The position numbers and the translations under genes are program-made. The notes beneath the pieces were generated by a model. The model made no database searches, had not been told where the DNA came from, and saw only the letters and a program-made list of their open reading frames with translations. Shown piece by piece: positions 13,144-37,967 of a stretch of 64,000 bases of DNA. The number at the start of each line of letters is the position of its first letter. Position 1 is the first letter of the stretch. Where the stretch lies: assembly GCA_900317325.1 (NCBI GenBank), contig ONGE01000004.1, forward strand, positions 145,590-209,589. The letters run 5' to 3'. Source of the DNA: an uncultured Prevotellaceae bacterium (GTDB lineage Bacteria > Bacteroidota > Bacteroidia > Bacteroidales > Muribaculaceae).

Positions 13144-15642
13144 ATGAAAAAAGTAATCTCTCTATTGTTTGCTTGCCTGCTGTCTCTCACAATGTCGGCA
13201 ACAACCCTTGTCGTGGTCTTTGACGCCACTGTAGACGTGGGTAACGGCTCCACAACAGCCGAACCGTTCATGATTGAAAAAGATGGAGTTACCATGTCGG
13301 TCTCCAATGGTCTTGCCAACGGCAATCAATATCGCATCTACAAGGGACAGACGCTCACCATCTGCAGCGCTGTTGGACCTATTATCAACATCGACTTCCA
13401 TTGCGTGGCGATGGATAATGAAAAATACGGCCCTGGATGTTTTGTAGCCAATGTGGGCGATTATGCCGCTGAAGGCTATGACGGCCATTGGAGCGGTCTT
13501 TCCCAGTGTGTGACCTTCACTGCCGCATCCAATCAGGTGCGCATTACCAAAATCGTGGTCACTGTTCAAATCGACGGTGTGGTTCCTCCCACGATAAGAC
13601 CGGCAGGCGGCACTTACTATGAGCCCATCAATGTAAGCATTACCAGTGTTGAGCCCGAGGCCGTGATCCACTACACGGTCGATGGCAATATGCCCACCGC
13701 CGACTCTCCTGTTTACAGCGCCCCCTTCATGCTCGACAGCGATGCTACAGTCCAAGCTGTGGCCGTACTGGATGGCGAGACAAGTGCTGTGTCGACTGCC
13801 CGATATGTGTTCAATTCTCAAGGGCCCTATGTCCTTGTTGACAGCATCAAGCAGCTGAAGGAGCTTGACGACAATACCAGAGTTAAATTCAATAATCCTG
13901 TGCAAGTCATCGCTCAACTTGGTTATTACATGTGGGTCAAGGATAATAGCGATTGTATCCAACTGTACGGCAATGCTGGCCAGAGCTACGTGCCTGGTGA
14001 TATGATTCCAGCCGGCTTCATGGGGACCAAGACGGTTTATCAAGGTGTGGTCGAATTGAAAGAACTCAGCGATTTCCGACCTGCAATAGACTACAAGCTA
14101 TTGGAAGCCGAGGTGGTCACCATTCCTGAACTGAATGACGATTTGCTGTCACACTATCTGCTCATCAAAGATGTGGCGTTCAGCTACGATGGCACCAATT
14201 ACTACATCACCGATGCCGAGGGCAACACTTGTCCGTTGTATTTGAGAGACTCCAACTTTCCTGCACCAGACAATCTCGTGGGACGCTGGGATGTATATGT
14301 GGTCTTGAGTGCCTATAGGGGCGTTTATCAGTTGATACCCGTCAATAACCCAGTTCATGGCTTCGATCCCTTTGGATTTGGGGATATCTACAATCCCGGT
14401 ATTCCCAATGGCACGAAGTTGATGTTCGGCTATGACGCCACGGTCCTGCTCCAATATGGCAGGTACCTGTATGCACGTGACATGACGGGCTATGCGTTGA
14501 TTTATGGCGATACGCAACAAACCTACAACCAGGGTGATGTCATTCCTGCAGGCTTTACGGCAACCAAGACGACTTACCAGGATATGCCGGAATTGACTAA
14601 TCCCGAGAACTTCATGCCCGCTACCGGCCAAGTGGAACTCGATGCCGAAGACTTGGAATTGGAAGACATCGATGTGTTTAAATTCTGCCATTATGTGAAG
14701 GTGGCGCAGGTGATGATTTCGCCCAACAACGATAGCCCGAACGGATCGGGCATATTGACCGACGGCTACGGTGACACGCTTAACTATTACGACCCCCTCG
14801 GTCTATTGCGACAAGGCGTCCTTGAATCGGGGAAGTGGTACACGGTCTATGGCGTTGTGGGGCTATACCGCCAGCAGCCTGAATTTATACTCACACGTGT
14901 TGAGGGATTGGCTCCGCTACCATTGACCGATGTGGCTGACCTGAGTGAATTGTATGACCTGGACATGTTACATCCGGCGCATTTCACTACGCCGCTCATA
15001 GCTGTATATCAGAATGGTCCTGAGTTGTATGTCAAGGATGCTCAGGGATATTTTGGCCTTGTTTACGGTAACCTGGAGAATACTTTCAACAATGGCGACA
15101 TCATCAATGACGCGGTGTGCTCGTGGTCAGAGTTTGATTGGCGCCGAATCCTGAATCCTGATGCCGCTACGTTTGTCTCCAGCGGTTCGGGTCCTGCCGT
15201 TGAGCCAGAGATGCTCCCCATCGAGGAAATCTCAAGAGACATGGAGTATTCTTACCTGAAATTCGAGGGCGTGACATTGGTCAAGGTTGATGACTATGGT
15301 CGCTATAGGATGAGTGACGGGATGGAAGAAATAAGGGTTACTTGGCCAGGGACGTTGCCTAAGCCCAGGAGGTTAAACTTCCCTTGTACTTATTCTGGTG
15401 AAGTGACAATTGCCGATGTCAATTTCTTGATTGATGTGATTCTGGATGAACCTAAGTTTTGGGACGGAAAATACGACGTGACTGGAATATTGTATGTTGA
15501 CAAATATGCAATGAGTGTCAAAGCCCTTATGGTTACAATCCCAGACGACGCATATGACTTAAATAGCGCTGACCTGAATGGTGACGGGGAAATCAACGTT
15601 GCCGACTTGAATGAATTGATCGGCATTATCCTTGTAGAATAG
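13144..15642 (+). CDS. Large secreted multidomain protein, paralogue of the preceding gene, with a rearranged dockerin
   Basis: 832 residues. Signal peptide ~1-19 (LLFACLLSLTMSA). Same order as the upstream paralogue: N-terminal beta domain, chitobiase-like domain (~145-225, TIRPAGGTYYEPINVSI, HYTVDGNMPT) and three OB-like modules with the conserved IPAGF and YQLIPV motifs. The end differs. One dockerin half (GEVTIADVNFLIDVILDE, residues ~752-769) sits inside the last OB-like module, which then resumes (KYDVTGILYVDKY). A single intact repeat (DLNGDGEINVADLNELI) closes the protein. The gene is complete and in frame, so the rearrangement did not break it. Ligand unknown. Confidence 0.87.
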   Translation: MKKVISLLFACLLSLTMSATTLVVVFDATVDVGNGSTTAEPFMIEKDGVTMSVSNGLANGNQYRIYKGQTLTICSAVGPIINIDFHCVAMDNEKYGPGCFVANVGDYAAEGYDGHWSGLSQCVTFTAASNQVRITKIVVTVQIDGVVPPTIRPAGGTYYEPINVSITSVEPEAVIHYTVDGNMPTADSPVYSAPFMLDSDATVQAVAVLDGETSAVSTARYVFNSQGPYVLVDSIKQLKELDDNTRVKFNNPVQVIAQLGYYMWVKDNSDCIQLYGNAGQSYVPGDMIPAGFMGTKTVYQGVVELKELSDFRPAIDYKLLEAEVVTIPELNDDLLSHYLLIKDVAFSYDGTNYYITDAEGNTCPLYLRDSNFPAPDNLVGRWDVYVVLSAYRGVYQLIPVNNPVHGFDPFGFGDIYNPGIPNGTKLMFGYDATVLLQYGRYLYARDMTGYALIYGDTQQTYNQGDVIPAGFTATKTTYQDMPELTNPENFMPATGQVELDAEDLELEDIDVFKFCHYVKVAQVMISPNNDSPNGSGILTDGYGDTLNYYDPLGLLRQGVLESGKWYTVYGVVGLYRQQPEFILTRVEGLAPLPLTDVADLSELYDLDMLHPAHFTTPLIAVYQNGPELYVKDAQGYFGLVYGNLENTFNNGDIINDAVCSWSEFDWRRILNPDAATFVSSGSGPAVEPEMLPIEEISRDMEYSYLKFEGVTLVKVDDYGRYRMSDGMEEIRVTWPGTLPKPRRLNFPCTYSGEVTIADVNFLIDVILDEPKFWDGKYDVTGILYVDKYAMSVKALMVTIPDDAYDLNSADLNGDGEINVADLNELIGIILVE

Positions 15643-23451: not shown

Positions 23452-23663
23452 TTGCAACGGGACAGAGGGATGATTCCTGTTCCCGCAGCGAACAAATGGT
23501 GATAAAAACAATAAAATACAGGCTTTATTTGTGGTTAAATATGAGAGGTGCGTCGGCAAGATGCGAGAGTCCCAGGACGCACCTCCCTTTTTGCGCCACA
23601 CGGCTATCGCTATTGCAACAAAACCATAATAACTGATTATTTACTGTCTAAAACGTTTTGATT

Positions 23664-26222
23664 ATGAAGAAATTCTTAATGACTCTAATGGCGTTGTTCG
23701 TGGTCAGTGCGGCCATGGCAGACAGCTATTTGTACATCGAACCGATATCGGTGACCCAAGACCAGCTGGCTGAGGGCCATGTCACCGTGCCGGTGAAGGC
23801 CCATTTCGAGGGGCGCGTGAGCGGCTTCCAGCTGGACATGACCTATCCCCAGGGCATTACAGCCGCTGGCTTTGAGAATGGCCCTAGCATGACCATCCCC
23901 TACATGAACAGTGCAGGCTTGGATAAGACGCAGGAGATCTCACTCTACTCGAATGAGGCCATGACGCGCATCGTCGCTGCAACCATGACCTACGGCTACT
24001 GGTATCCCGCAGATGGCACCATCCAGAACTACGGCGTCATCAAGTGGGAACCCGGCGACTACGAAGAAATGTTCTATCTCACCTTGAATGTCGCTCCCGA
24101 CTTCGAGGGCGGTGACTTGATTATCGAGAGCACCGTCGGCGCGGGCGAGGATGCCCGTGGCGGCACGGTCACCGACCTGGGACAGAGCGGCCAGGTCTAT
24201 ACCACCATGTGCCCCATTGAGGTCATTCCTGCCCCGATCGAGTCTACCCCGATGCCCGAAATCATGTATTACTGTGATGATGATTTCTGCACGATCGAGG
24301 CTATCGGCGAGGGCGAAGTGCATCTCTATATCGATGATGTGGAAGTCGAGAATCCCTACATGATCAGCAGGCTCTACGGCCAGGACCAGACCTTTATTGC
24401 TGCAGCTACCGCTCAGATCGAGGGTTGGCTTATCAGCGAGGTGACCATGATGGAGGTGACTGTGCCCGGTCGCGCGAAGAGGCCGGTGCCCGCCCCTGTC
24501 CTCACCTATACCATTGAAGATGACAGGGTAATCGTGAACATCGAGTGGCCTGAGAGTGACGGTAACCGCAAGCTGTATATCGATGGCTGGAAGTATGACG
24601 CCTCGGTCACCACCCACGAGTTCTATCGCATGGATGAGGATCAGGAAATCAGCATTGTGGCCTATGTGCTCGAAGGTGAGACTTATGCCGCAAGCGAGGT
24701 GCTTGATTATATGCTCACTGTTCCCGCTCTTGTACAGCTCTATGCGCCCGTTCCTACTATCGAGTGCACTTACAACAACGACGCTGCAATCATCACTGCG
24801 GCAGGTGAAGGTGAAATTCACCTCTATATTGATGGACAGGAAGTGGAGAATCCTTGTGTGCTGCCGCGTGGCGAAGTGGATTATCAGGTCGAGGTAACGG
24901 CAATAGCTCGCATCGACGGTATGATCGACGGCAGTTATTCGATGACGCTGATCGTGCCTGCCAAGGAAGTTGAGCCCGATCCAGTGCCCGGCTTCAGCCT
25001 GACCATGGCCGACGCTAAGATTCTGCATGGCCAGAGCATCGTCATCCCCGTGTCGATGACCAACAGCGAGGCTGTCACCGCCTTCCAGACCGACCTGTAT
25101 CTGCCCGAGGGCTTCGAGCTGCAGGATGTGGTACTGTCCGACCGCAAGGCCGACCACCAGCTGCTGACCAGCAACCGTGCCGACGGCAGCGTGCGCCTGC
25201 TGTGCTACTCGCCCACGCTCTACACGTTCGAGGGCAATGAGGGCGAACTGCTCTACATCACCGTCAAGACCCCCGACAATGCGTCCGGCGATTATACCCT
25301 TGAACTGAAGAAGAACTTGCTCACGCTGGCTGGCACCTATGATGAGGTGCGCTGCGATGATACCGATGCCACACTCACCGTGATGGCCTACATCCTGGGC
25401 GACGTCAATGGCGACGGTGTCGTGACCGTGACCGATGTCGTGCTCACCGTGCAGCGTGTGCTTGACCTGAATCCCGATCCGTTCATTTTTGATGCTGCCG
25501 ACGTGAACCGTGACGGCGATATCACCGTGACCGACGTCGTGCTCATCGCCCGCATGGTGCTCTATCCCGAGTTGGTTGACATGATGCGTGCTCCCGCCCT
25601 GGGCGAAATCACCGATGCCATGAGCGGCAACGCCATCGACATCATGCCTGGCGAGACCCGCACCGTGACCATCGCCCTGGACAACGATATCGACTACACG
25701 GCATTCCAGCTCGATGTGCAACTGCCCGACGGCATGACCGCCAGCAACTTCAGCCTGACTGGCCGTGCCGGCAGCCACACCCTGAACACCAATATGATGG
25801 CCGACGGCAGTCAGCGCTTGATGTGCTACTCGCCGATGCTGGCCTCGATCAGCGGCAACGAGGGTGCCCTGCTCACCTTCGAGGTGACTGCAACGGGCAG
25901 CGTGAGCGGTGACATCATGATTGACGGTATCGAGATGGTGAGCGCCGCTTGCCAGACGGTTAACCTCGACAGTTTCGCCATCCAGGTGAATGCCGGTGCC
26001 ACCACTGCAGTGAAGGAGATGACTCAGGGCTTGCGCATCTACACCGATGGCAATAACATCATTGTCGAGAGCCCTGTCAGCCAGCGCATCATCATCAGCG
26101 ATGTGGCCGGACGCTCCTACAGTGTCGACGTGACCGAGGGTCGCCACGTCATCCCCGCCCGCAACTCGGGTGTGGTGATTGTGACCGGTGGCGGCAAGAC
26201 TGCTAAACTCATGATCAACTGA
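23664..26222 (+). CDS. Scaffoldin-like surface protein: cohesin-like domains, internal dockerin, T9SS sorting tail
   Basis: 852 residues from ATG 23664 (an in-frame TTG lies at 23658). Signal peptide ~1-20 (LMTLMALFVVSAAMA). Domain order: a cohesin-like beta domain (~20-190; HVTVPVKAHFEGRVSGFQLDMTYP); three short Ig/chitobiase-like repeats (~200-440; EGEVHLYIDDVEVENP, later EGEIHLYIDGQEVENP); cohesin-like 2 (~445-575; SIVIPVSMTNSEAVTAFQTDLYLP); a dockerin pair (~578-638; DVNGDGVVTVTDVVLTV, DVNRDGDITVTDVVLIA); cohesin-like 3 (~645-775; YTAFQLDVQLPDG). A T9SS type A C-terminal domain (~780-852; GLRIYTDGNNIIVESP, RIIISDVAGRSYSV, GVVIVTGGGKTAKLMI) closes it. The tail predicts T9SS export and surface attachment. 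'Cohesin-like' rests on fold pattern and needs profile confirmation. The next gene starts 16 bp on, probably one transcript. Confidence 0.85.
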   Translation: MKKFLMTLMALFVVSAAMADSYLYIEPISVTQDQLAEGHVTVPVKAHFEGRVSGFQLDMTYPQGITAAGFENGPSMTIPYMNSAGLDKTQEISLYSNEAMTRIVAATMTYGYWYPADGTIQNYGVIKWEPGDYEEMFYLTLNVAPDFEGGDLIIESTVGAGEDARGGTVTDLGQSGQVYTTMCPIEVIPAPIESTPMPEIMYYCDDDFCTIEAIGEGEVHLYIDDVEVENPYMISRLYGQDQTFIAAATAQIEGWLISEVTMMEVTVPGRAKRPVPAPVLTYTIEDDRVIVNIEWPESDGNRKLYIDGWKYDASVTTHEFYRMDEDQEISIVAYVLEGETYAASEVLDYMLTVPALVQLYAPVPTIECTYNNDAAIITAAGEGEIHLYIDGQEVENPCVLPRGEVDYQVEVTAIARIDGMIDGSYSMTLIVPAKEVEPDPVPGFSLTMADAKILHGQSIVIPVSMTNSEAVTAFQTDLYLPEGFELQDVVLSDRKADHQLLTSNRADGSVRLLCYSPTLYTFEGNEGELLYITVKTPDNASGDYTLELKKNLLTLAGTYDEVRCDDTDATLTVMAYILGDVNGDGVVTVTDVVLTVQRVLDLNPDPFIFDAADVNRDGDITVTDVVLIARMVLYPELVDMMRAPALGEITDAMSGNAIDIMPGETRTVTIALDNDIDYTAFQLDVQLPDGMTASNFSLTGRAGSHTLNTNMMADGSQRLMCYSPMLASISGNEGALLTFEVTATGSVSGDIMIDGIEMVSAACQTVNLDSFAIQVNAGATTAVKEMTQGLRIYTDGNNIIVESPVSQRIIISDVAGRSYSVDVTEGRHVIPARNSGVVIVTGGGKTAKLMIN

Positions 26223-26238
26223 TAAAACCCTACAGACG

Positions 26239-26892
26239 ATGATTACCAGAAGTCTATTGTCTATCATTATGGTCGTTGCGGCAACCTTCGGTGCTGCCGC
26301 AACCGACCTCTTTCATATCGAGGATTTCAACATTGAGCCTGGGCAGACGGCACAGGTGGAAATCCTGTTGGATAACGAGGTGCAATACACCGCATTCCAG
26401 AGTGACCTCTATCTGCCCGAGGGGCTTGTCCTCGAGGCGCAGTCGGTGGCGTTGACCGACCGTAAGGCCGACCACAGCATCGCCACCAGTGTGCTGGCCG
26501 ACGGCGGCATCAGAATGATGTCCTACTCGATGTCGTTGCAGCCTTACAGCGGCAACAACGGCACCCTGGTCACCTTCAGGGTCACTGCTGGCGAATCCTT
26601 TGCCGGCCCCTTGACCATCCAGCTCAGGAATACCCGTTTCACCACCCTTCAGGGACGTGAAATCCCTTTTGAGAACACCAGTTGCACTGTGAGCGCCGTG
26701 GCGTTGCTCCAGCCTGGTGACGTGAACGGTGACGGCCAGGTGAACGTCAGCGATGTTTCTACCTTGATCAACAACCTCATGAGCGGCAACGAGGCTGCTC
26801 TCAACCCTCAGGCAGCCGATCTCAACGATGACGGCAGTGTGAACATCACCGACGTGTCGTTGCTGATCAACCTGATCATGAGTGCTGTGTAG
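26239..26892 (+). CDS. Small secreted protein: one cohesin-like domain plus C-terminal dockerin
   Basis: 217 residues. Signal peptide ~1-21 (LLSIIMVVAATFGAAA). Residues ~24-150 repeat the cohesin-like domain of the preceding protein, with close matches: YTAFQSDLYLPEGL, LTDRKADHSIATS, GIRMMSYS, YSGNNGTLVTFRV. The dockerin pair (~156-215; DVNGDGQVNVSDVSTLI, DLNDDGSVNITDVSLLI) ends 3 residues before the stop. With both halves of a cohesin/dockerin pair it looks like an adaptor that could bridge dockerin proteins to the scaffold. Sixteen bases from the upstream gene and followed by a terminator, so it is the last gene of a two-gene unit. Confidence 0.85.
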   Translation: MITRSLLSIIMVVAATFGAAATDLFHIEDFNIEPGQTAQVEILLDNEVQYTAFQSDLYLPEGLVLEAQSVALTDRKADHSIATSVLADGGIRMMSYSMSLQPYSGNNGTLVTFRVTAGESFAGPLTIQLRNTRFTTLQGREIPFENTSCTVSAVALLQPGDVNGDGQVNVSDVSTLINNLMSGNEAALNPQAADLNDDGSVNITDVSLLINLIMSAV

Positions 26893-27012: not shown

Positions 27013-27047
27013 AGATTGACCATTTCACACATTAAATGATAACTATT

Positions 27048-29180
27048 ATGAAAACACAATCTGTTACTGCAACAAGCTCATCGGCCATTTTTCTTGCTAT
27101 GGCGATGGCATTGATGGTCCTCATGCCTGGTACTGCCCATGCATGGGATTTTACTTACAATGGACTGCATTTCGACATCATCGCAGAAGATGAAGTGGAA
27201 GTGACCTACTTTATGAATCCATTAGAGTCGGGCTACGAGGGTAATATTGTCATTCCCGCCGAGGCTACACGATATGATGGCAGCATCTATCGGGTTACCT
27301 CTATCGGTGAACATGCCTTCTACCGTTGCGGTGCCCTTACCAGCATCGTGATTCCAAACTCGGTGCGCAACATCGGCAAGGAAGCCTTCATGGATTGCGA
27401 AGCCTTGACTGTCCTTAATCTGCCCCCCTCGGTCGAAACGATCGGCGAGCAGGCTTTCATGTGGTGTGATGGCCTGACCAGCGTCACGATTCCAGGCATA
27501 GTGCAGACCTTGGGTGTAAATGCATTCTACGGCTGCAAGGGCTTGACTAGTGTGACTGTCGGTGCCCATGAAATCTGTGATGAGGCCTTTATTCACTGTT
27601 CGGCCATTACCGAGGCTCACATCGGCCCAGGTGTCGAAGTCATCGGTGTGGGCCCTTTCACATCGTGTCCCATGCTGACCACGCTCACGGTGGATGAGGA
27701 CAATCCGTTCTTTGATTCCCGTGACGGCTGCAACGCCATTATTGAGACGGCTACGGGTAACCTTGTGCAGGGCTGCCAGACGACAGTCATTCCCCAAGGC
27801 ATTGTGTCGATTGGCGAACAAGCTTACTGGGGACATGATGAACTGACGGAAATCATACTCCCGTCTTCGGTCACAACTATCGGCAGCCGTGCTTTTTCCG
27901 GCACCGGTGTCATCGATGTGACTATCCCTAATACGGTGACGCATATAGGCGATGCCGCATTCTTTGGCTGCCCATCCCTGGAGAGCATCACATTCTCAAA
28001 TGCGATGACTGTCATCAGTGATGAGATGTGTCGCCAATGCGATAATTTGGCGAGTGTGACCATCCCCGATGGGGTGACGCGCATCGGCGATTATGCGTTT
28101 TATATGGCTAGCATTGATAATTTGTCGTTAGGTAATACGATTACCGAAATCGGTAATTATGCTCTTGGCTTTAACGAGTTCACCCAGTTGGATCTTCCTG
28201 CTTCTCTCATAACGATAGGCGATTATGCCTTTCAATCATGCTCAAATCTAACAAGCCTGGTTCTTCCTGACTCGCTTGTTTCGATTGGCGAGTATGCCTT
28301 TACTGATAACACCGAATTGACTTCGGTTTCTTTCCCTCATTCGCTCACGGCAATAGGTCGCTGTGCTTTTTATTCCTGCACCAAATTGGAGCATGTCGTG
28401 ATTCCTAACTCTGTCACGAGTATCGGGCCTTCTCCTTTCAATTCCTGCAGGGCGATGGAGTCTATTGTTGTAGAGGAAGGTAACCCGGTCTATGATTCTC
28501 GAGGAGGCTGCCGGGGCATTATCGAGACCGCCAGCAATAAGTTGGTTCAAGGTTGCAAAAGGACATCGATTCCTGACGGAGTCAATATTATCGGTGAGAA
28601 AGCCTATGCCGCTCAGTGGAATTTGTATTATGTCACGCTTCCCAATTCGGTCAAGGTCATTGAGGATGAGGCCTTCCACACTTGCGCCAATCTGTCTGAT
28701 ATTGTCATCCCCGACTCGGTGATAAGGATAGGCAACTCGGCCTTCGGTAGCTGTGTCAGGCTCAGTAGTGTCACCATTGGCGCTTCGGCTGCCGAAATCG
28801 GGAGTTCCTGCTTTGCCGGTTGCAGGTACCTCACTAATGTGACATGTCGCGCCCTGGTACCTCCCGCCTGTGTGTCAAGCACATTCAACGACCGATACAG
28901 CAAGGCTACCTTGCGCGTGATGCGTCCCTCGCTCGATGCCTACAGGGCTCACGAGGTGTGGAGCCTGTTCTCCAACATCGAGGCGCTGCCGGGAGCAGGC
29001 CCCGGTGACATGAACGGCGACGGCGAGTTCACGGTGAGCGACATCACGCTGCTCATCAACGCCGTCGTTGGAGCCGGTGAAAACGTCGAGTACAATGCCG
29101 ATGCCGATGTGAACGGTGACGGCGACGTGAATATCACCGATGTCATCCAGCTCATCAACCAGATGATGTCTGCGCGTTGA
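27048..29180 (+). CDS. BspA-like leucine-rich repeat surface protein with C-terminal dockerin
   Basis: 710 residues from ATG 27048 (an upstream ATG at 27036 adds MITI). Signal peptide with a long hydrophobic core ends ...GTAHA (~33). Then a short lead domain (WDFTYNGLHFDIIAEDEVEVTYF) and many ~23-residue TpLRR/LRR_5 repeats of the form IGexAFxxCxxLTSVtIPnSV. They are interrupted by a non-repeat insert seen in all BspA-like proteins here (NPFFDSRDGCNAIIETATGNL) and capped by a CRALVPP/Trp segment. The dockerin pair (DMNGDGEFTVSDITLLI, DVNGDGDVNITDVIQLI) closes it. BspA proteins bind fibronectin, fibrinogen or other cells; ligand here unknown. The terminator just upstream leaves little room for a promoter, so expression may depend on readthrough. 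Confidence 0.9.
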   Translation: MKTQSVTATSSSAIFLAMAMALMVLMPGTAHAWDFTYNGLHFDIIAEDEVEVTYFMNPLESGYEGNIVIPAEATRYDGSIYRVTSIGEHAFYRCGALTSIVIPNSVRNIGKEAFMDCEALTVLNLPPSVETIGEQAFMWCDGLTSVTIPGIVQTLGVNAFYGCKGLTSVTVGAHEICDEAFIHCSAITEAHIGPGVEVIGVGPFTSCPMLTTLTVDEDNPFFDSRDGCNAIIETATGNLVQGCQTTVIPQGIVSIGEQAYWGHDELTEIILPSSVTTIGSRAFSGTGVIDVTIPNTVTHIGDAAFFGCPSLESITFSNAMTVISDEMCRQCDNLASVTIPDGVTRIGDYAFYMASIDNLSLGNTITEIGNYALGFNEFTQLDLPASLITIGDYAFQSCSNLTSLVLPDSLVSIGEYAFTDNTELTSVSFPHSLTAIGRCAFYSCTKLEHVVIPNSVTSIGPSPFNSCRAMESIVVEEGNPVYDSRGGCRGIIETASNKLVQGCKRTSIPDGVNIIGEKAYAAQWNLYYVTLPNSVKVIEDEAFHTCANLSDIVIPDSVIRIGNSAFGSCVRLSSVTIGASAAEIGSSCFAGCRYLTNVTCRALVPPACVSSTFNDRYSKATLRVMRPSLDAYRAHEVWSLFSNIEALPGAGPGDMNGDGEFTVSDITLLINAVVGAGENVEYNADADVNGDGDVNITDVIQLINQMMSAR

Positions 29181-29480: not shown

Positions 29481-32117
29481 ATGAAAAAGAGAACATTTTA
29501 CCTAGCTATCGTGATGGCGCTCAGCGTGGTGATGAGTGCCCTGGCGGCTCCCGTTGACGAGGCCGCTGCCCGCCTTGCTGCCATGCAGGTATTTAATAAC
29601 CCGTCGGGAGCACCCGGCTTCAGGTCTGGTCTGCCCTCGGGCAACCTGCAACTGTTGCGTGCCGAACCCAGCGATGTGATGGCCGGTCAGGCTGCCTATT
29701 TTATCTACAACACCGACAACGCTTTTGTCGTGGTCGCCGGTGATGACCGCGCAGGCATTCTGGCCCGTGGCGGCGCTCCGTTGGACTTGAACCGCATCCC
29801 CTGCGGCCTGCAATGGCTGCTCGAGATGTACAAGGACGAGGTGGACTTCCTGCTGGCGCATCCCCAACTGAATATCACGGCTCCTGCTCTGGGTTCGGGC
29901 ACAAGTGTGGCCCCGCTGTTGACCACCCAATGGGGCCAGGGTTATCCTTACAACAACGATTGCCCTGTTTATAGAGGCACGGCGTGTGTGACAGGCTGCG
30001 CTTGTACTTCGTTGGCTCAGGTAATCAATTACTGGAGGTATGCCGATATCACGTCACCAATCGATGCCTATACCACTTCGTCTTTGGGCATTTATCTTGA
30101 GGAACTGCCGCCTGCCGACTTTGATTGGGACCAGATGATCGAGAACTATTACTACATGCCCTTTGACGATGTTCAGGCTGGCGCTGTAGCGAAATTGATG
30201 CGCTATGTTGGTCAGGCCGAGCAGATGGATTACGCCCCCGATGGTAGCGGAGCCAGTGGCAGTGATGTCTTAAGGGCCGCTTTGAAGTTTGGCTATGACG
30301 AGGGTGTGGCGCTCTTGAACAAGGCGAACTTCCTTGCCGACCAGTGGGCAGGTGTCTTGCAGGCTGAGTTGCAGGCAGGTCGCCCTGTCGTGTATATTGG
30401 CCATGACAAATACTCCGGTGGTGGCCATGCTTTCAATGTGGATGGCTATGACGCCGAGAACGGCCTCTACCATGTGAACTTCGGATGGGACGGTGATGGC
30501 GACACCTACTGTGCCTTGAATGATTTCTCGGCCTACGGTTACACCTTTTCCAATCTCCAGTCGATGCTTATTGGCATCCAGCCCCCCGATAACGTTGAGA
30601 CCGCAGTTACTGTGGCTCCCTCGTCGCTGTTGTTCAACAGCCAGCCGGGCAATCGCGTAATCAAGTCGTTCACTGTCAAGGGCAGTGCGTTGCAGGGTAA
30701 CCTGTCACTGGCGCTTGACGACCCGACGGGTTCCTATGCCATCAACAAGACTACCCTCACTGCCGGTGAGGCTTCCGATATGGCAACCGTGCAGGTGACT
30801 TACAATCCTGCCGGAGTGGGTGTGCATAATGCCAGCGTGATTATCAGCGGTGGCGGCATTGAGCCGCAGACGGTGAGCTTGAGCGGCTTTGCTGTTGATG
30901 TGACCCCGACGATTGAAGTCGATCCGGCTTCGTTGTCGTTTGAAACGACAGTGGGCGAGACCGTGACATCGACCTTCACAGTCAAGGGTGTGAACCTTAC
31001 CTCTGGATTGACGCTTGCGCTCAATGGTGACAGTGAGGACTTTGCCATCGACAAGTCATTCGTCTCGGTTGTTGCGGCTGCCGGGATTGTCACCGTTACG
31101 GTAACCTACGCGCCTGCCGAGGTGGGCGAGTCCGATGCTACAGTGACTGTTACCGGTAGCGGCGCCGAGGCAAAGACGGTGACGCTGCACGGAGTTGCCA
31201 ATGCTCCTGCCGCCCCCGCTCAGCCCGGCTTTACGCTGGACTGCGAGCAGGTGGATTTCGGCTACGGCTTCAACGGCTATGGTGAGAACCGCAAGATTAT
31301 GCTCACAGGTGAGGGCCTCGCCGGCAATCTCACCTTGAAGTTGGTGGGTGGCGACAGCATCCACTTCAGTGTCAGCCCGAGCACCATCACTCCCGAGATG
31401 GCCGCCCAAGGTGTGGAAATCAACCTGCGTTTCTTCCCCTACAACGTGGGACGACTCAGCACCCGCCTGGTCATTTCCAGCCCCGATGTCGCTGACAAGG
31501 AGGTGCCTCTCACTGGCTATGGCATCAAGACCGGCGCCTATCTCTATCCGAGCGCCGATTCGATGAGCTTTGAGACCTCGGTAGGGCACTCCGTTCTCAA
31601 GACCGTAGGGGTGCTCAAGAAGAATTTTGAAGGCTGGATTGCCGCACCTGGAGCTAATCATGCCCCCGGCAGCATGGATCCTGTCCTCCCTGTAGTTTTT
31701 ACTTCGGTGTTCTGCAATATCGAGGGTGATGAGGAAGGTAATTTCAGCATCGTGTCAACTAACATGACTAAGAACTCTGCGGGTTGTGACAGCGTGATCT
31801 TCACCATCTGCTACACGCCGATGGAGGAAGGCACTCACACGGCCAATCTTGTTTTCTCGACGTTGATATTGAACAACCAATATCCTGCTTATCCTGTCAC
31901 GATACCCATCACGGGTGTCGCAACGGGTGACAGTGCTGCCGGTGACCTGAACGGTGACGGCCAGTTGACGGTGAGCGATGTGATTCTGCTCATCAATGAC
32001 CTCATCAGCTCCAATCGCATGGTGACGGCCAATCCTGTTGCCGACATGAACGGCGACGGCGATGTGAACATCACCGATGTCGTCAATCTCATCGACGCTG
32101 TGATGCACGCCGAGTGA
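29481..32117 (+). CDS. C10 family cysteine peptidase (streptopain-like) with Ig-like repeats and dockerin
   Basis: 878 residues from ATG 29481 (in-frame TTG at 29472). Signal peptide ~1-22. A Spi/propeptide-like segment (~23-110; AAARLAAMQVF, YFIYNTDNAFVVVAGDD) precedes the papain-like C10 domain (~140-370). Catalytic Cys is probably C173 in TGCACTSLAQVINYW and the His H316 in GGGHAFNVDGYD, followed by YHVNFGWDGDGD. Three to four ~100-residue Ig-like repeats follow (VAPSSLLFNSQPG; VDPASLSFETTVG; CEQVDFGYGFNG). The dockerin pair (DLNGDGQLTVSDVILLI, DMNGDGDVNITDVVNLI) ends it. Family members include streptopain and interpain A, made as zymogens. Substrate here unknown; extracellular protein degradation or processing of surface partners is inferred. 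Confidence 0.92.
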   Translation: MKKRTFYLAIVMALSVVMSALAAPVDEAAARLAAMQVFNNPSGAPGFRSGLPSGNLQLLRAEPSDVMAGQAAYFIYNTDNAFVVVAGDDRAGILARGGAPLDLNRIPCGLQWLLEMYKDEVDFLLAHPQLNITAPALGSGTSVAPLLTTQWGQGYPYNNDCPVYRGTACVTGCACTSLAQVINYWRYADITSPIDAYTTSSLGIYLEELPPADFDWDQMIENYYYMPFDDVQAGAVAKLMRYVGQAEQMDYAPDGSGASGSDVLRAALKFGYDEGVALLNKANFLADQWAGVLQAELQAGRPVVYIGHDKYSGGGHAFNVDGYDAENGLYHVNFGWDGDGDTYCALNDFSAYGYTFSNLQSMLIGIQPPDNVETAVTVAPSSLLFNSQPGNRVIKSFTVKGSALQGNLSLALDDPTGSYAINKTTLTAGEASDMATVQVTYNPAGVGVHNASVIISGGGIEPQTVSLSGFAVDVTPTIEVDPASLSFETTVGETVTSTFTVKGVNLTSGLTLALNGDSEDFAIDKSFVSVVAAAGIVTVTVTYAPAEVGESDATVTVTGSGAEAKTVTLHGVANAPAAPAQPGFTLDCEQVDFGYGFNGYGENRKIMLTGEGLAGNLTLKLVGGDSIHFSVSPSTITPEMAAQGVEINLRFFPYNVGRLSTRLVISSPDVADKEVPLTGYGIKTGAYLYPSADSMSFETSVGHSVLKTVGVLKKNFEGWIAAPGANHAPGSMDPVLPVVFTSVFCNIEGDEEGNFSIVSTNMTKNSAGCDSVIFTICYTPMEEGTHTANLVFSTLILNNQYPAYPVTIPITGVATGDSAAGDLNGDGQLTVSDVILLINDLISSNRMVTANPVADMNGDGDVNITDVVNLIDAVMHAE

Positions 32118-32307: not shown

Positions 32308-35300
32308 ATGAAACAACGATTAAATTTGATGTGTCGAGTGGCGGTGTTGTTACTGGCACTGTTGCCGGTGGCACTATCGCTCCAGGCCCAGGATACTTTC
32401 TGGGTGAACGGCATCCGTTATTCAATTGACTACGAGGATGAGTACTATTGGGGCACTCCCGATATCATCACCCTGAGGGTGATTTCGGCCACGGGCAGCA
32501 CGACCTATAGCGGCGAGATCGTCATTCCTGAAACGGTCAAGGTGAACGTGTCGCGTTACGAAGGTTCGTACTATGGCGGTAACTATGATATGTTCTGCCA
32601 GGTCACGTCCATTGGTGAAGATGCCTTCCGCGATTGTACCGGCTTGACAGCTGTCCAGCTCCCCAGGAGCATCAAGAACATCGGCAGGAATGCTTTCTAC
32701 GGCTGTACAGGTCTGAGTGAATTGACCATTCCTAACGGTGTGAGCAGCATCGGAGAGCAGGCTTTCGCTTATTGCACAAGTCTGACGTCAATGACGTTGC
32801 CCAACTCGGTGACCTCGTTGGGATGGAACGCGTTTTACTCGTGTACAGGGCTGAGAAACGTGACGCTCTCCAAGAGCTTGACCAGCCTTAATGGTACCTT
32901 CGTGGGCTGCACGGGCTTGACCACTGTGTCGGTTCCCGCTGGTGTGCAGTCGCTCAACACCACGTTCAACGGCTGTACGGCATTGACGACGGTGCAGTTG
33001 CCTCGATCGCTCAAATCGATTGAAGAAGCTGCGTTTGACGGTTGCTCTTCTCTGGCAAGCATCTATCTGCCCGAGGGTGTGGATTACATCGGCAAGCAGG
33101 CCTTCCGCAACACTGCTTTGACGTCAGTGGAACTGCCGAGCCGTGTGTCCAAGGTGTTCGAGAATGCCTTTGAGGGCTGCACGCAGTTGACCTCGGTCAC
33201 GAGCCGTAACCTCACGCCGCCCGTAATGGTCAACAACACTGCCTTTGACGGTGAGACCTATGGCACGGCAGCGCTTTATGTTCCTGCAGTGGCTGTTGCC
33301 CAGTACAGCGGCGCCGACTGGTGGAAACTGTTTGAAAACATCGAGGGTCAGGTTGCACTCAATACCCACTACGACTTTGAAGCCGGTGGCATCTATTACC
33401 TGATTACCGGCGGCAATACCGTTGAGGTGACCTACAAAGACACGAATTATAACAGCTATAGCGGCAATGTGACCATCCCTGCCAGCGTGACCTACAACGG
33501 CGTGACCTATAGCGTTACTGCCATCGGTACCTATGCCTTCAACAATTGCACGGGTCTGACCTCTGTTTCGATGCCGGCCACCATCACCAGTATCGGCAGC
33601 TTTGCCTTTAATGGCTGCAATGGATTGACATCACTCAACCTCCCCGAGTCGCTTGCCGCCATCGGCGAGAGGGCATTCATGGACTGCTCGGGCGTGACAT
33701 CACTTACCATTCCTGAAAATGTTACCAGCATCGGTGAATATGCGTTTTCAGGCATCAGAGACCTGACGTCCCTCACCTGGAACGCTCGCGAGTGCTGGAC
33801 CAACGGCAACATGATCACCAGCAGCATCGCCACGTTGACCATCGGCGATGAGGTGGTTGTGATTCCAGGGAACCTGGCCTATTGTTCTGCCATCACGACA
33901 GTGGAGATTCCGCAGTCGGTGAAGTTTATTGGTCAGGAAGCTTTCAATGGCTGTAATGGTGTGACATCGCTGACGATTCCCCAGAATGTGGTTGACATAG
34001 GCACTAATGCCTTTGCAAACATCAACAACCTGACCTCGCTCACCTGGAACGCCCGCGAGTGCTGGACCAACGGCAATATGCCCACCTATCGCATCACTTC
34101 GTTGACTATCGGCGATGGTGTAAAGATTATACCCTCCTATCTGGCCCGGAACTCCCAAATCACAACACTGTCGATTCCTGAGAGTGCTACAATCATTGGC
34201 GCATACGCTTTCAATCAATGCCGTGGCTTGACCAGTGTGGTCATTCCTGACAATGTCACCTTCATTGGTAAAAGCGCTTTCTACAGTTGCTATAATGTGA
34301 CAGACCTCACATTGGGCAAGTCGGTGACGACGATCGACGCCTACGCCTTCATAGATTGCCGCATGAACACGCTCACATGGAATGCGCGCAACCTCAGCTT
34401 GGATGATTCAAGCGGGAACAATCAGTACGATTATGGTAACTCGATAGAGAAGCCTGCTATTTTTGATTTCACAGCGGTGTCGCAGTTAACCATCGGTAAC
34501 GAGGTGGAACAATTGCCCAACTATTTCGCCTATCAATCCAGGGTGGCGACTGTGGAGATTCCTAACTCGGTCACTGCTATCGGAAATTTTGCCTTTGCCG
34601 AATGCGACGTGTTGACCGATGTCACACTGCCGACAGGCCTCATCACTATTGGCGAAAGTGCTTTCGAGAACTGTGAAGTGTTGGCTCATGCCGACTTGCC
34701 CAGTTCGTTGACAACGCTAGGTGCACGCGCTTTTTATGGCTGTGGTAGACTCACCAGCCTTGCTGTGCCGGCCTCACTCACCTCGTTCGGCAAGTGGGCA
34801 TTCAACCAGTGTCTTGGCTTGGAAACCATCGTTGTCGATAGCGAGAACCCCGTGTATGACAGCCGTGAGAACTGCAACATCATGTTCAAGACCGTCAACG
34901 ACAGCATCATGTTGATGGGTAAGAATGCAGTGCTGCCCAGCTCGCTGACGGCCATTCCTGACTCGGCCTTCTATGGCCATACCGAAATCACCCACATGGA
35001 GATTCCTGCATCGGTTACAAGGATCGGCAAAGACGCATTCAACGGTTGCTATAACTTGACTTCTGTAACGCTTCCCGATGGGTTGACACAGATGGGAGAT
35101 CGTGTATTCTACGGTTGTTCAAAACTGACTTCGGTCACGCTGCCGACGGCACTGACTCAGATTGGTGAATGCGCTTTCATGCTGTGCTCTAAATTGAATT
35201 CTGTCACGATTCCTGCTTCGTTGACTCAAATCGGTAAACGTGCATTCTCTAATTGTAGAGCTCTGCAGTCGATCACTGTCGAGAGCGGCAATCCGGTTTA

Positions 35301-36849
35301 TGATTCACGTGGCAACTGCAACGCCATTATCGAAACTGCCAGCAACACCTTGACCGAAGGCTGTCTTTCGACGGTAATCCCGTCCACGGTGAAGACCATC
35401 GGACAGTATGCTTTCCAAGGCCGCTCGCCGTCCATTGTCACGATTCCTACTGGTGTTGAGACCATAGCCAGCTATGCTTATTATCAGTGTGATGTTGAGA
35501 ATCTCTCTTTTGGTGAAACACTCAAGTCTGTCGGTTATTCTGCTTTTGGCGGCTGTGACAATTTGACGACAATCTCCTTCGGCAATTCGGTTGAGACCAT
35601 CGGTGATTATGCTTTCAGCGGTTGCGATAAGTTGATGAATATCGATTTTGGTCATTCATTGGTGTCAATCGGTGATTATGCTTTCAGGAATTCTATCAGT
35701 ACTGTATATAGTGACAATCCCTCAATCTACGTCGATGATAACGGTGAAATGTTCATGCTTGTTCAATATGAAGGATACGATGATTATTACTATACACCCA
35801 TCTATAACAATTATGACGGTTGGTATTGGTACCATAACTGGTACGGAGAGGAAATTTGGATATCTGAAGAAGAACTGAACGAATTGATGAATGTCTCAGG
35901 AACGGTTACGATTACACTTCCTGAATCGTTGAAGACCATCGGAAAATACGCTTTCTATGCTTGCAAGGGACTGAGAAGCGTCGTGATGGCTCCGAACTCA
36001 GTGACATCTATAGGTGATGACGCATTCAGTCAGTGCCGCAGTATCGAGAGCATTGTCATTCCCAAGTCTGTTAAGACGTCGGGATATAGTGCTTTCTCCG
36101 GTTGTAAAATAGATTCGGTTTGCATCAGTGACCTCGTGGCATGGTGTGACATCGACTTCAAGAATTCTAATAGCAATCCCGTTAATGGAAGTAAAGGACT
36201 GTATCTGAACGGCGAAAAGATTGTTGACCTTGTGATCCCCGTTGGTGTGAACGCAATCAAGGAAAACGCATTTGTCGGCTGTAAGGGATTGAATAGCGCA
36301 ACGATCGCCAACTCGGTCAAGAGCATCGGATACGATGCATTTTATGATTGCACGGATTTGATGCGTGTGGACATCGGTGACTCAGTGGATTCGATTTCCA
36401 GCTATTCGTTCACTGATTGCACTGGTCTGGTAACTCTTAGCCTGGGTCGCTCGATGAGGTTCATTGGCTACATGTCGTTCTATAACGCTCCCATCGAGAG
36501 CCTGACTTCCTTGGCGACAACGCCCCCCGTCGTTGAGAGCTACAATCCGTTCTCTTGCTATTCGACTGCCACCTTGCGTGTGCCGATGGCTTCGGTCGAG
36601 GCTTATAAGGCCGCCACTATCTGGAAGAAGTTCACTAACGTTGAGGGTATTCCCGGCGGTGGTCCCGGCGACTTGAACGGCGATGGTGAGTTGAGCGTCA
36701 GCGACGTCACGATGCTCATCAATCTCATCATGAGTGCCGGCGAGGAAGGAATCGATGGTAATGGCGTGGCCGATGTGAACGGCGATGGTATGGTTAACGT
36801 CAGCGACATCGTTCTGCTCATCGAAATGGCGCTTAATTCGACCAGATAG
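32308..36849 (+). CDS. Giant BspA-like leucine-rich repeat protein with C-terminal dockerin
   Basis: 1513 residues. Signal peptide ~1-27 (VAVLLLALLPVALSLQAQ). Two or more lead modules of the type FWVNGIRYSID and YDFEAGGIYYLITGGNTVEVTY are each followed by a long run of ~23-residue LRR_5 repeats (IGexAFnxCxxLTSVtIPxSV). Conserved inserts occur (NPVYDSRENCNIMF; NPVYDSRGNCNAIIET), and a Tyr-rich island (~1145-1180; YEGYDDYYYTPIYNNYDGWYWYHNWYG) breaks the solenoid. A repeat block around SLTWNARECWTNGNM is duplicated 267 bp apart. C-terminal dockerin pair (DLNGDGELSVSDVTMLI, DVNGDGMVNVSDIVLLI). Likely a surface adhesin; ligand unknown. Confidence 0.92.
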   Translation: MKQRLNLMCRVAVLLLALLPVALSLQAQDTFWVNGIRYSIDYEDEYYWGTPDIITLRVISATGSTTYSGEIVIPETVKVNVSRYEGSYYGGNYDMFCQVTSIGEDAFRDCTGLTAVQLPRSIKNIGRNAFYGCTGLSELTIPNGVSSIGEQAFAYCTSLTSMTLPNSVTSLGWNAFYSCTGLRNVTLSKSLTSLNGTFVGCTGLTTVSVPAGVQSLNTTFNGCTALTTVQLPRSLKSIEEAAFDGCSSLASIYLPEGVDYIGKQAFRNTALTSVELPSRVSKVFENAFEGCTQLTSVTSRNLTPPVMVNNTAFDGETYGTAALYVPAVAVAQYSGADWWKLFENIEGQVALNTHYDFEAGGIYYLITGGNTVEVTYKDTNYNSYSGNVTIPASVTYNGVTYSVTAIGTYAFNNCTGLTSVSMPATITSIGSFAFNGCNGLTSLNLPESLAAIGERAFMDCSGVTSLTIPENVTSIGEYAFSGIRDLTSLTWNARECWTNGNMITSSIATLTIGDEVVVIPGNLAYCSAITTVEIPQSVKFIGQEAFNGCNGVTSLTIPQNVVDIGTNAFANINNLTSLTWNARECWTNGNMPTYRITSLTIGDGVKIIPSYLARNSQITTLSIPESATIIGAYAFNQCRGLTSVVIPDNVTFIGKSAFYSCYNVTDLTLGKSVTTIDAYAFIDCRMNTLTWNARNLSLDDSSGNNQYDYGNSIEKPAIFDFTAVSQLTIGNEVEQLPNYFAYQSRVATVEIPNSVTAIGNFAFAECDVLTDVTLPTGLITIGESAFENCEVLAHADLPSSLTTLGARAFYGCGRLTSLAVPASLTSFGKWAFNQCLGLETIVVDSENPVYDSRENCNIMFKTVNDSIMLMGKNAVLPSSLTAIPDSAFYGHTEITHMEIPASVTRIGKDAFNGCYNLTSVTLPDGLTQMGDRVFYGCSKLTSVTLPTALTQIGECAFMLCSKLNSVTIPASLTQIGKRAFSNCRALQSITVESGNPVYDSRGNCNAIIETASNTLTEGCLSTVIPSTVKTIGQYAFQGRSPSIVTIPTGVETIASYAYYQCDVENLSFGETLKSVGYSAFGGCDNLTTISFGNSVETIGDYAFSGCDKLMNIDFGHSLVSIGDYAFRNSISTVYSDNPSIYVDDNGEMFMLVQYEGYDDYYYTPIYNNYDGWYWYHNWYGEEIWISEEELNELMNVSGTVTITLPESLKTIGKYAFYACKGLRSVVMAPNSVTSIGDDAFSQCRSIESIVIPKSVKTSGYSAFSGCKIDSVCISDLVAWCDIDFKNSNSNPVNGSKGLYLNGEKIVDLVIPVGVNAIKENAFVGCKGLNSATIANSVKSIGYDAFYDCTDLMRVDIGDSVDSISSYSFTDCTGLVTLSLGRSMRFIGYMSFYNAPIESLTSLATTPPVVESYNPFSCYSTATLRVPMASVEAYKAATIWKKFTNVEGIPGGGPGDLNGDGELSVSDVTMLINLIMSAGEEGIDGNGVADVNGDGMVNVSDIVLLIEMALNSTR

Positions 36850-37046: not shown

Positions 37047-37967
37047 ATGATGAGAATAAGACTTTTTTTCGTGGCCGCCTTGCTCCTGGCTATGTTGCAG
37101 GGTTGGGCTGCTCCCGCAGTGATTAATGTGAATGTCGGGGAATTGGACTTCGGCAACCTTGAGGTGGGCTACCCGGTCACCAAGTCATTTATGGTAACGG
37201 GCTCCAATCTCCAGGGCGACATCAATCTGGCAATCGAATCACAGCACAACTTTTACTATGAAGTCACCCCCGAGACCATCACGCCCGAGGAGGCTGCTGG
37301 CGGTGCCGTCGTGACGTTGAAATGCTATCCCATTTCAGATTACCTTCATGGTGCAACCCTCATCCTGACCAGTCAGGATGCCCAGGATGTCCTCATCCCT
37401 ATTACGGCCACGGCCTTTTTCCCCGATATGTTCGTGAACAACCGGGCCGAGAGCTTCACCGGTTTTGCCGGGGGATTCAGTAGACGCACCGGCGTTGTAC
37501 GTTTTGCCGATGCCGAGATTCCGCCCGACCCTAACCCCAACACCCCCATGTTGAATGCCGTTCACCCCGATTACATCGTGCCCGACTACTATTCAATCAG
37601 TGTCGAGGGTGCTGATGCTTCCCAGTTCATGGCCCGAATCGTGAAAGGCAGCTCTATCGCTAAACTCTGTACTGTCGAGATTACTTATGTTCCTCGCAGG
37701 GTTGGCACCCATTCGGCGACGCTCAAGCTCTATTGCAGCCGTGCCGGAGTCCCCCAGGTCACGATTCCGCTCAGGGGCGAGGCTACCGAGGTGCTGGGTG
37801 ACCTGGACGGTGACGGCACGTTGGCTGTGGGTGATGTGACGGGCTTTATCAACCTGATGCTCAGCAATGGCGATATCCCCTCACGCGCCGATCTTGACAG
37901 CAACGGTGCGATTGACATCAGCGATGTCACCATTCTGGTCAACCGCTTGCTCAACGCTGCCGAGTAA
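37047..37967 (+). CDS. Secreted Ig-like domain protein with C-terminal dockerin
   Basis: 306 residues. Signal peptide ~1-20 (LFFVAALLLAMLQGWAA). Residues ~24-125 are an Ig-like/HYDIN-type domain closely resembling those of the C10 peptidase (LDFGNLEVGYPVTKSFMVTGSNLQGDINLAI). A second similar domain (~130-245) holds ISVEGADASQFMARIVKGSS and TYVPRRVGTHSATLKL. The dockerin pair (DLDGDGTLAVGDVTGFI, DLDSNGAIDISDVTILV) ends 5 residues from the stop. It may be an accessory binding protein derived from the peptidase's C-terminal part; function unknown. Confidence 0.87.
   Translation: MMRIRLFFVAALLLAMLQGWAAPAVINVNVGELDFGNLEVGYPVTKSFMVTGSNLQGDINLAIESQHNFYYEVTPETITPEEAAGGAVVTLKCYPISDYLHGATLILTSQDAQDVLIPITATAFFPDMFVNNRAESFTGFAGGFSRRTGVVRFADAEIPPDPNPNTPMLNAVHPDYIVPDYYSISVEGADASQFMARIVKGSSIAKLCTVEITYVPRRVGTHSATLKLYCSRAGVPQVTIPLRGEATEVLGDLDGDGTLAVGDVTGFINLMLSNGDIPSRADLDSNGAIDISDVTILVNRLLNAAE

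Follow-up and report, generated by a model that had tools for sequence, protein, structure and literature searches.

The stretch analysed here, called the window, comprises 64,000 nucleotides (positions 145,590 to 209,589 of contig ONGE01000004.1, assembly GCA_900317325.1) of an uncultured Prevotellaceae bacterium whose genome is a 3.47-Mb draft in 44 contigs. It carries two adjacent genes, A and B, that may encode the core of a surface scaffold built from cohesin and dockerin domains. Both lie on the forward strand, 16 bases apart: gene A (23664..26222, in an open frame spanning 23658..26222) encodes a scaffoldin-like protein of 852 residues, and gene B (26239..26892) an adaptor-like protein of 217 residues. 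An earlier note on this DNA, which had given the same coordinates for both frames, proposed protein A as a surface anchor delivered by the type IX secretion system (T9SS), protein B as an adaptor, and CotH, BspA-type leucine-rich-repeat and C10 peptidase proteins as their clients. The closest named loci belong to metagenome-assembled genomes (MAGs) of Muribaculaceae or unclassified Bacteroidales from goat, roe deer, water buffalo and red deer, and to the RUG series, which we take to be from cattle rumen; other related loci are labelled Prevotellaceae (L068 and L078) or Bacteroidaceae (L077, L080 and L081).

Protein A consists, in order, of a signal peptide, a cohesin-related N-terminal domain (23724..24233), immunoglobulin (Ig)-like repeats, a cohesin-like domain (Coh2, 24987..25391), a dockerin (25395..25562), a further cohesin-like domain (Coh3, 25608..25997) and a T9SS-like, DUF6383-like C-terminal tail (25989..26219), all read from the forward strand; its relatives are found in loci L063-L078. 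The internal dockerin (residues 578-633), seen already in the earlier note, is well above the cut-off of Pfam Dockerin_1 (PF00404, 39.1 against 22.9 bits) and belongs to a divergent class with V at position 14. Protein B is composed of a signal peptide, a cohesin-like domain (26299..26709) and a client-like dockerin (26713..26877, residues 159-213) with S at position 14 and LIN. The prediction of one cohesin-like domain plus a dockerin for this gene was borne out, for the dockerin by PF00404 (55.5 bits) and for the cohesin by a local profile and by relatives. Between the N-terminal domain of A and Coh2, at 24249-24978, about three Ig-like repeats of ~80 residues (GEGEVHLYIDDVEVENPY / GEGEIHLYIDGQEVENPC) can be discerned, which match no Pfam family above cut-off.

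The cohesin-like domains were recognised by profiles built within their own family and by the scores of their relatives. A local cohesin profile, trained on the family to which both domains belong, gives 168 bits for Coh3 and 180 bits for the domain of B. Profile A1, built from the four window domains only, recovered the other five cohesin-like domains of the genome at E 1e-17 to 3e-9; two weaker places, at E 0.11 and 0.19, were left out of the count. Ten relatives' domains, namely nine middle domains and the first cohesin of L076, were scanned singly with Pfam Cohesin (PF00963, cut-off 24.1 bits), and four of them passed (L064 with 30.2, L065 with 28.4, L067 with 24.3 and L074 with 33.8 bits), the matches extending over 108-127 residues. 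Among 41 members of the cohesin family PF00963 was matched by 13 at E ≤ 0.1, and the next-ranked Pfam family by three. The scores of the relatives place Coh2, Coh3 and the domain of B in one family with better-scoring members that are Pfam cohesins. Within the N-terminal domain of A the resemblance to cohesins is confined to the first ~45 columns (hhalign probability 96%, E 2e-9, 44 columns; a partial match of 11 bits to the local profile). The strong scores of this domain with profiles A1 and A2 are circular, as both contained it, A2 holding all nine domains of the genome; profile A11, built without it, recovers eight of the nine. It is treated here as cohesin-related and doubtful as a cohesin beyond the first third. 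Of the three cohesin-like domains that the earlier note had counted in A, two (Coh2 and Coh3) are therefore clear, and the third matches over its first third only.

The pair of genes is conserved. In 12 of the 13 loci whose records span both gene places (L063-L070 and L072-L076; L071, which begins too near its gene, was left out) a gene of the order cohesin-dockerin-cohesin-tail is followed by a gene with a cohesin first and a dockerin. Three of these differ in detail: in L068 only the last part of the A-type gene lies in an open frame, the second gene of L069 and of L072 extends into a further domain, and the dockerin of L072 stands at a greater distance downstream. The variant, L076, has a dockerin-cohesin-tail gene, then two cohesins and a distant dockerin; L077, L078 and L080 are also variant. 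Each of the 10 annotated loci within L063-L075 has a dockerin, either on the cohesin chain itself or on the product of the neighbouring gene. In a tree of 57 cohesins those of B form one group (96/79) with one L077 cohesin inside, those at the third position of A another (100/99) and those at the second position of A another (100/97), each of the latter two comprising all loci but L078. Position, rather than species, determines how the cohesins group, a pattern suggesting that three separate kinds have been maintained. The second gene of some relatives extends beyond the dockerin into an ending that by eye is of the FGE-sulfatase type (L069 5929-7344; L071 683-2065; L072 5932-8568).

The tail of A would be the part that carries the protein to the surface. 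Related cohesin proteins have tails above cut-off, with DUF6383 at 27.1 bits in L077 and Por_Secre_tail at 38.2 bits in L233, and C10 peptidases of sister genera end in the same two families (in 4 and 20 of 42 cases, respectively). It is on these relatives that the T9SS reading of the tail of A is based, and to regard it as a T9SS signal is natural but unproven. The genome encodes a full-length SprA (TIGR04189, 2579.6 bits, model positions 2-2318 of 2319), the component to which the search for the secretion system was limited. Elsewhere in the genome (L041, C18:29711-31042) lies a further SprA-like stretch, which is partial and interrupted by two in-frame TGA stops.

Dockerin pairs had also been noted in eleven other proteins of the window. 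Eight of these are above the PF00404 cut-off, which with A and B makes 10 of 13 proteins, and three are just below it; a profile built from the dockerins of the genome, and partly trained on those of the window, matches all 13 at 27-84 bits. The dockerins of the window show a duplicated repeat with D-x-N-x-D-G-like loops. All eleven genes lie on the forward strand. Three encode CotH proteins, two with a C-terminal dockerin (3..1376 and 1369..2862) and one with an N-terminal dockerin (39319..40932). Four encode BspA-type LRR_5 proteins with a C-terminal dockerin (27036..29180, 32308..36849, 56780..60070 and 60211..63270), and one a C10 peptidase with a Spi inhibitor domain, Ig-like domains and a C-terminal dockerin (29481..32117). 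The three below the cut-off are two CHB_HEX_C_1/Fn3_assoc proteins, one with a weak C-terminal dockerin (10361..12883; 20.1 bits, 60 bits by the local profile) and one with a degenerate dockerin (13144..15642; 18.2 and 27 bits), and an Ig-like, choice-of-anchor D-like protein with a C-terminal dockerin (37047..37967; 22.8 bits against 22.9, 44 bits by the local profile).

These proteins belong to a genome-wide set. Dockerin_1 gives at least 156 matches in the genome at E up to 1 (288 candidates, 150 scored); the 150 scored matches are spread over 149 reading frames, of which 137 are complete, and 131 of these 137 begin with a signal-peptide-like N-terminus by our own heuristic. A local island was considered and rejected, dockerin frames being found on 34 of the 44 contigs, and anchoring of the clients as lipoproteins was likewise rejected, a loose lipobox pattern being present in three of the 137 complete frames. 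Six proteins of the genome share nine cohesin-like domains: A has three (one partial), L145 has two, and B, L050 (214 residues) and each of two L154 proteins have one. There is no long cohesin array in the genome, with at most two clear cohesins and one partial per protein.

Client domains were scanned for in 146 of the 149 dockerin frames at E 1e-5, three frames shorter than 60 residues being dropped and the cohesin proteins included. Besides Dockerin itself (140), the families found are LRR_5 (34), Peptidase_C10 (17), CotH (12), DUF285 (9), M6 (8), FGE-sulfatase (7), S8 (at least 6), alpha-amylase (at least 5), endonuclease I (4), GHL10 (3), peptidyl-arginine deiminase (1) and GH53 (1). The FGE-sulfatase Pfam domain is thus on seven dockerin frames. 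Several of the client families are T9SS substrates in relatives of Porphyromonas. CotH, BspA-type and C10 proteins, named as clients in the earlier note, are among the commonest families, genome-wide and not as a local feature, and stand beside alpha-amylases, endonuclease I and the GH53 protein. The amylases and the GH53 protein would suit a conventional amylosome or cellulosome with polysaccharide-degrading enzymes as main clients, as would the dockerin accompanying GH13 in the Muribaculaceae genus C941, reported in PMC9863278. This explanation is very improbable, as the commonest client domains are LRR_5 (in 34 of the 146), C10, CotH, M6 and S8, and no cellulase is among the families listed, 16 further single-member families standing outside that listing.

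The dockerins of the genome fall into discrete classes. In a comparison of 135 different dockerins (that of A was left out, and that of L145 is outside the search pattern) repeats 1 and 2 agree strongly at positions 14, 11, 18, 20, 10, 7 and 16 (z 30, 25, 14, 12, 11, 9.5 and 8.5 against shuffles) and mildly at positions 3, 5, 9, 19 and 21 (z 3-5); at positions 2, 4, 8, 15 and 17 there is no agreement beyond shuffles (z between -1 and 1). The agreement is selective, and is therefore not that of a simple recent duplication, under which all positions would agree. Position 14 is T in both repeats of 67 dockerins and N in both repeats of 41, and in no frame are T and N mixed. Cellulosomal dockerins have a dual binding mode. 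The pattern found here fits a two-fold symmetric partner site of the same kind, with two specificities, in which the agreeing positions would be the binding positions, and the two client classes probably use different cohesins. The dockerin of A itself (VTDVVLTVQ) and that of L145 represent a third kind.

Cohesin-like domains and dockerins also occur together across genomes. Of 198 family genomes, 61 have cohesin-like domains and 83 have dockerins (E 0.001). Each of the 16 sampled genomes of the genus has 3-19 cohesin-like domains and fills all 30 scored dockerin places, with 69-299 first-look candidates; outside the genus there are 0-9 dockerins per genome, apart from the sister-genus genome G001 with 30. 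Dockerins are present in 53 of the 61 cohesin genomes against 30 of the 137 others (p 3e-18), in 37 of 45 against 30 of 137 when the genus is removed (p 6e-13), and, among 198 genomes of the order, in 12 of 14 against 30 of 184 (p 1e-7, at E 1e-5). The presence of a T9SS as the cause of the dockerin expansion was rejected, SprA being found in 190 of the 198 family genomes.

The place that the dockerins take in the client proteins is best followed on the C10 peptidases, which are present in 57 of 59 family genomes tested. The outside set comprises 42 C-termini from 40 genomes of other genera (one each, three from G001), and the genus set 18 C-termini (eight from G017, six from G040 and four from the genome of the window) plus 15 added because they are dockerin-tailed, 33 in all; it includes 19 of the 22 C10 peptidases of the window's genome. 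Pfam Dockerin (E 0.1) is matched by 25 of these 33 tails, partly selected in this way, against one of 42 outside, this single case being L212 (G036, genus g9), and the unselected tails of G017 and G040 have a dockerin in 10 of 14 cases by the local profile. Por_Secre_tail shows the reverse, with 20 of 42 outside against at most one of 33 in the genus. Neither family is matched by the other outside tails, many of which are tail-like by eye. The genus members L222, L226 and L227 retain a T9SS-like tail, by eye. CotH proteins carry a dockerin in five of six cases in two congeners against none of 15 outside, and the window's genome has 14 CotH matches and 12 dockerin frames with CotH; the local tail profile matches eight of the 15 outside CotH proteins. 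At the level of sequence these comparisons show that on C10 and CotH proteins the dockerin stands where sister genera often have the T9SS signal. In this genus dockerins seem to have replaced that signal, the direction of change, with the tail lost and the dockerin gained, being suggested by the rarity of dockerins outside it. The earlier note had overlooked this position of the dockerins, a position that leaves the export of the clients across the outer membrane unexplained.

The same position could be taken to mean that the dockerin-like C-termini are themselves an export or sorting signal, read by the T9SS or another system and unrelated to cohesins. They occupy the tail place in C10 and many CotH proteins, and among the 137 complete frames the dockerin lies within 10 residues of the C-terminus in 112 and 11-40 residues from it in seven. 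We consider this improbable, since more than 40 residues follow the dockerin in the other 18, which include A, L145 and the two L154 proteins, all of them cohesin-bearing, and six frames in which the dockerin is within 40 residues of the N-terminus. Moreover, dockerins are helical domains. T9SS signals, on the other hand, are beta-sandwich domains according to PMC4804311, and other Bacteroidales (L233, L234, L236 and L237) have proteins in which the dockerin is internal and precedes an ending that by eye is T9SS-like.

In other families of Bacteroidales these cohesins stand in rows of 5 to 10 on very large proteins (L233 2974-14238; L235 3622-14952; L234 8170-13353), three of the four proteins having a T9SS-type tail. 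In G200 eight of these cohesins are on a protein of 2467 residues with Por_Secre_tail (38.2 bits), five on the product of the next gene and seven on a protein of 3777 residues, the local profile detecting a tail on each of the last two. A protein of G244, cut off by the end of the contig, has ten. Other domains lie between many of the cohesins, and neither the 2467-residue protein of G200 nor that of G244 has a Pfam Cohesin match at E 0.01. The arrays indicate that T9SS-tailed scaffoldins with cohesins missed by Pfam occur elsewhere in the order. Beside the array genes, proteins with an internal dockerin and then a T9SS-like ending by eye are encoded (L234 2-7953; L236 1-2022; L237 4679-7498; L233 1-2790), and dockerin and tail may thus coexist in one protein.

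Taken together, we regard the locus as part of a non-cellulosomal cohesin-dockerin scaffold of a genus near ruminant-gut Muribaculaceae, with a probability of about 0.6. Protein A and up to four similar proteins would be exported by the T9SS, attached to the surface and display their cohesins there, and it would be their dockerins, and not tails of their own, that keep the clients on the surface. Protein B, with a client-like dockerin and a cohesin of its own kind, would dock on A and either add a socket or link A molecules. The divergent dockerin of A would bind a cohesin other than the client receptors, which would let A and B cross-link. The scheme of anchor, adaptor and clients put forward in the earlier note is in keeping with the cohesins, the dockerins, the weak T9SS-like tail, SprA and the A-B pair in 12 of 13 loci; the binding and surface roles in it are inferred. 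As to the export of the clients, it is possible, though rather unlikely, that more than 100 dockerin clients, lacking the T9SS signal or having lost it, fold in the periplasm, dock on the cohesins of A or its paralogues, leave through SprA as complexes and are anchored as such; if so, one carrier signal would serve much of the surface proteome. Leakage, vesicles or another route are the alternatives to such co-export with a tailed carrier.

Several observations weigh against a cohesin-dockerin scaffold, and the first of them concern the identity of the domains. PF00963 does not match the whole of protein A, nor Coh3, the N-terminal domain or the domain of B when these are scanned singly; Coh2 alone reaches 18.4 bits against 24.1, and a scan of the whole genome gave nothing above cut-off (best 22.2 bits). 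In a profile search of the PDB the best full-length match, to the NagJ module of Clostridium perfringens, is not significant (E 0.17), and ranks below a partial match to endonuclease I (E 0.06) that was judged a chance one; hhalign against a single CipA cohesin gave an uninformative 0.4-1.3% probability, and a PDB search with one relative's cohesin as query found nothing. The domains could, on this evidence, belong to a distant Ig-like or carbohydrate-binding beta-sandwich family, A and B being ordinary adhesins. We hold this to be quite improbable in view of the four relatives' domains that pass Pfam Cohesin, the co-occurrence with dockerins and the dockerin found at every annotated locus within L063-L075. 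The tail of A, the weakest part of the earlier observation, reaches 20.5 bits with DUF6383 (PF19910, cut-off 23.7) when isolated, has no TIGR04183 or Por_Secre_tail match and is missed by the local profile trained on C10 tails, its support coming from relatives; with the same profile L050 and one L154 protein give weak matches of 15 bits each, and neither L145 nor the other L154 protein is found, although the endings look alike by eye. This profile also misses seven of the 15 outside CotH proteins.

Further points of this kind concern numbers and partners: nine cohesin-like domains face about 150 dockerins, G001 has 30 scored dockerins with no cohesin detected and three C10 tails that are not dockerins, and G290 and G391 of the order have many dockerins but lack this cohesin family, an argument against its being the only partner. 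The co-occurrence is inflated by kinship of the genomes and by proteins with both domains, the latter noted outside the genus. The small number of cohesins and the case of G001 would fit cohesins and dockerins that are real but serve mainly intramolecular contacts or self-association, through the Coh-Doc-Coh chain of a polymerising A, most C-terminal dockerins being loose calcium-binding tails without a partner; a single dockerin match in 52 of the 67 dockerin-bearing genomes outside the genus and the presence of both domains in one chain in L077, L078 and L080 point the same way. This explanation appears doubtful, since repeat agreement at a few positions and two discrete classes are what selection by a partner would produce, the client dockerins are unlike that of A, and the dockerins have multiplied at one and the same C-terminal site of proteins that are otherwise unrelated.

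If the scaffold reading holds, cellulosome-like surface assemblies with mainly adhesin-like and peptidase clients would come to light in another major group of gut bacteria. A cohesin clade mostly missed by Pfam, partly on T9SS-tailed proteins, could explain some of the dockerin-bearing rumen genomes reported without cohesins, and the apparent exchange of the T9SS signal for a dockerin raises the question of how clients without a tail cross the outer membrane. Designed protein assemblies would also gain new parts, with two natural classes of dockerin and three or more types of cohesin.

The system is best placed by comparison with those already known. As in the cellulosomes of clostridia and Ruminococcus flavefaciens, there is a putative plug-and-socket arrangement, an adaptor-like protein with cohesin and dockerin and a separate dockerin class on the presumed anchor; unlike in these, no carbohydrate-binding module (CBM) was found on A or B by Pfam, no cellulase is among the listed clients, long cohesin arrays are missing and the host has SprA and a T9SS. 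The cohesin-like module of C. perfringens NagJ (PDB 2jh2, 2ozn), the best full-length structure match mentioned above, is an example of non-cellulosomal use, on a secreted glycosidase of a Gram-positive bacterium, a host that unlike the present one has no T9SS.

Several reports concern dockerins in related gut bacteria. In Muribaculaceae C941 from cattle forestomach dockerins are described as prevalent 'without cohesion' (its spelling), and a non-amylosomal approach was inferred (PMC9863278). It shares with the genome studied here the family of the nearest named relatives, the kind of host, the prevalence of dockerins and GH13 amylases, and in the window's genome, too, Pfam finds no cohesin above cut-off; the genus of the window is not equated with C941. 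Dockerins without cohesin are reported for some rumen MAGs (PMC9763041), two cohesins for a Prevotellaceae bin (PMC5830445) and dockerins for Bacteroidetes bins (PMC6071333). A rumen genome with T9SS cellulases has neither cohesins nor dockerins, called consistent with other Bacteroidetes (PMC5831590), which counts against their usual occurrence. No description of the tail swap, the A-B pair or the dockerin classes was found in the literature covered, which left out most subscription papers and preprints. What is new here is the apparent exchange of tails on C10 peptidases, the unmixed dockerin classes and the same cohesins in T9SS-tailed arrays elsewhere in Bacteroidales.

Further parallels lie in other phyla. 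For Candidatus Stygibacter (Cloacimonadota) PMC8542988 proposes a cellulosome-like complex with a scaffoldin bearing a C-terminal domain (CTD) and with dockerin peptidases, and mentions the Planctosome of freshwater Planctomycetes, likewise a cellulosome-like complex proposed for polypeptide degradation, in a phylum other than that of the window. As a CTD-anchored scaffoldin had already been proposed for Cloacimonadota, the present system is a variant, and the idea is not the first of its kind. In Stygibacter, too, C-terminal dockerins are found on serine and gingipain-like peptidases, a chitinase and a GH57 protein (PMC8542988). In that organism a single scaffoldin of 3,755 residues with tandem cohesins and CBMs is described and four dockerin enzymes are named (PMC8542988), whereas here A and B form a compact module of two genes, the dockerins number about 150, the cohesins mostly escape Pfam, and dockerins stand at the place of the T9SS tail.

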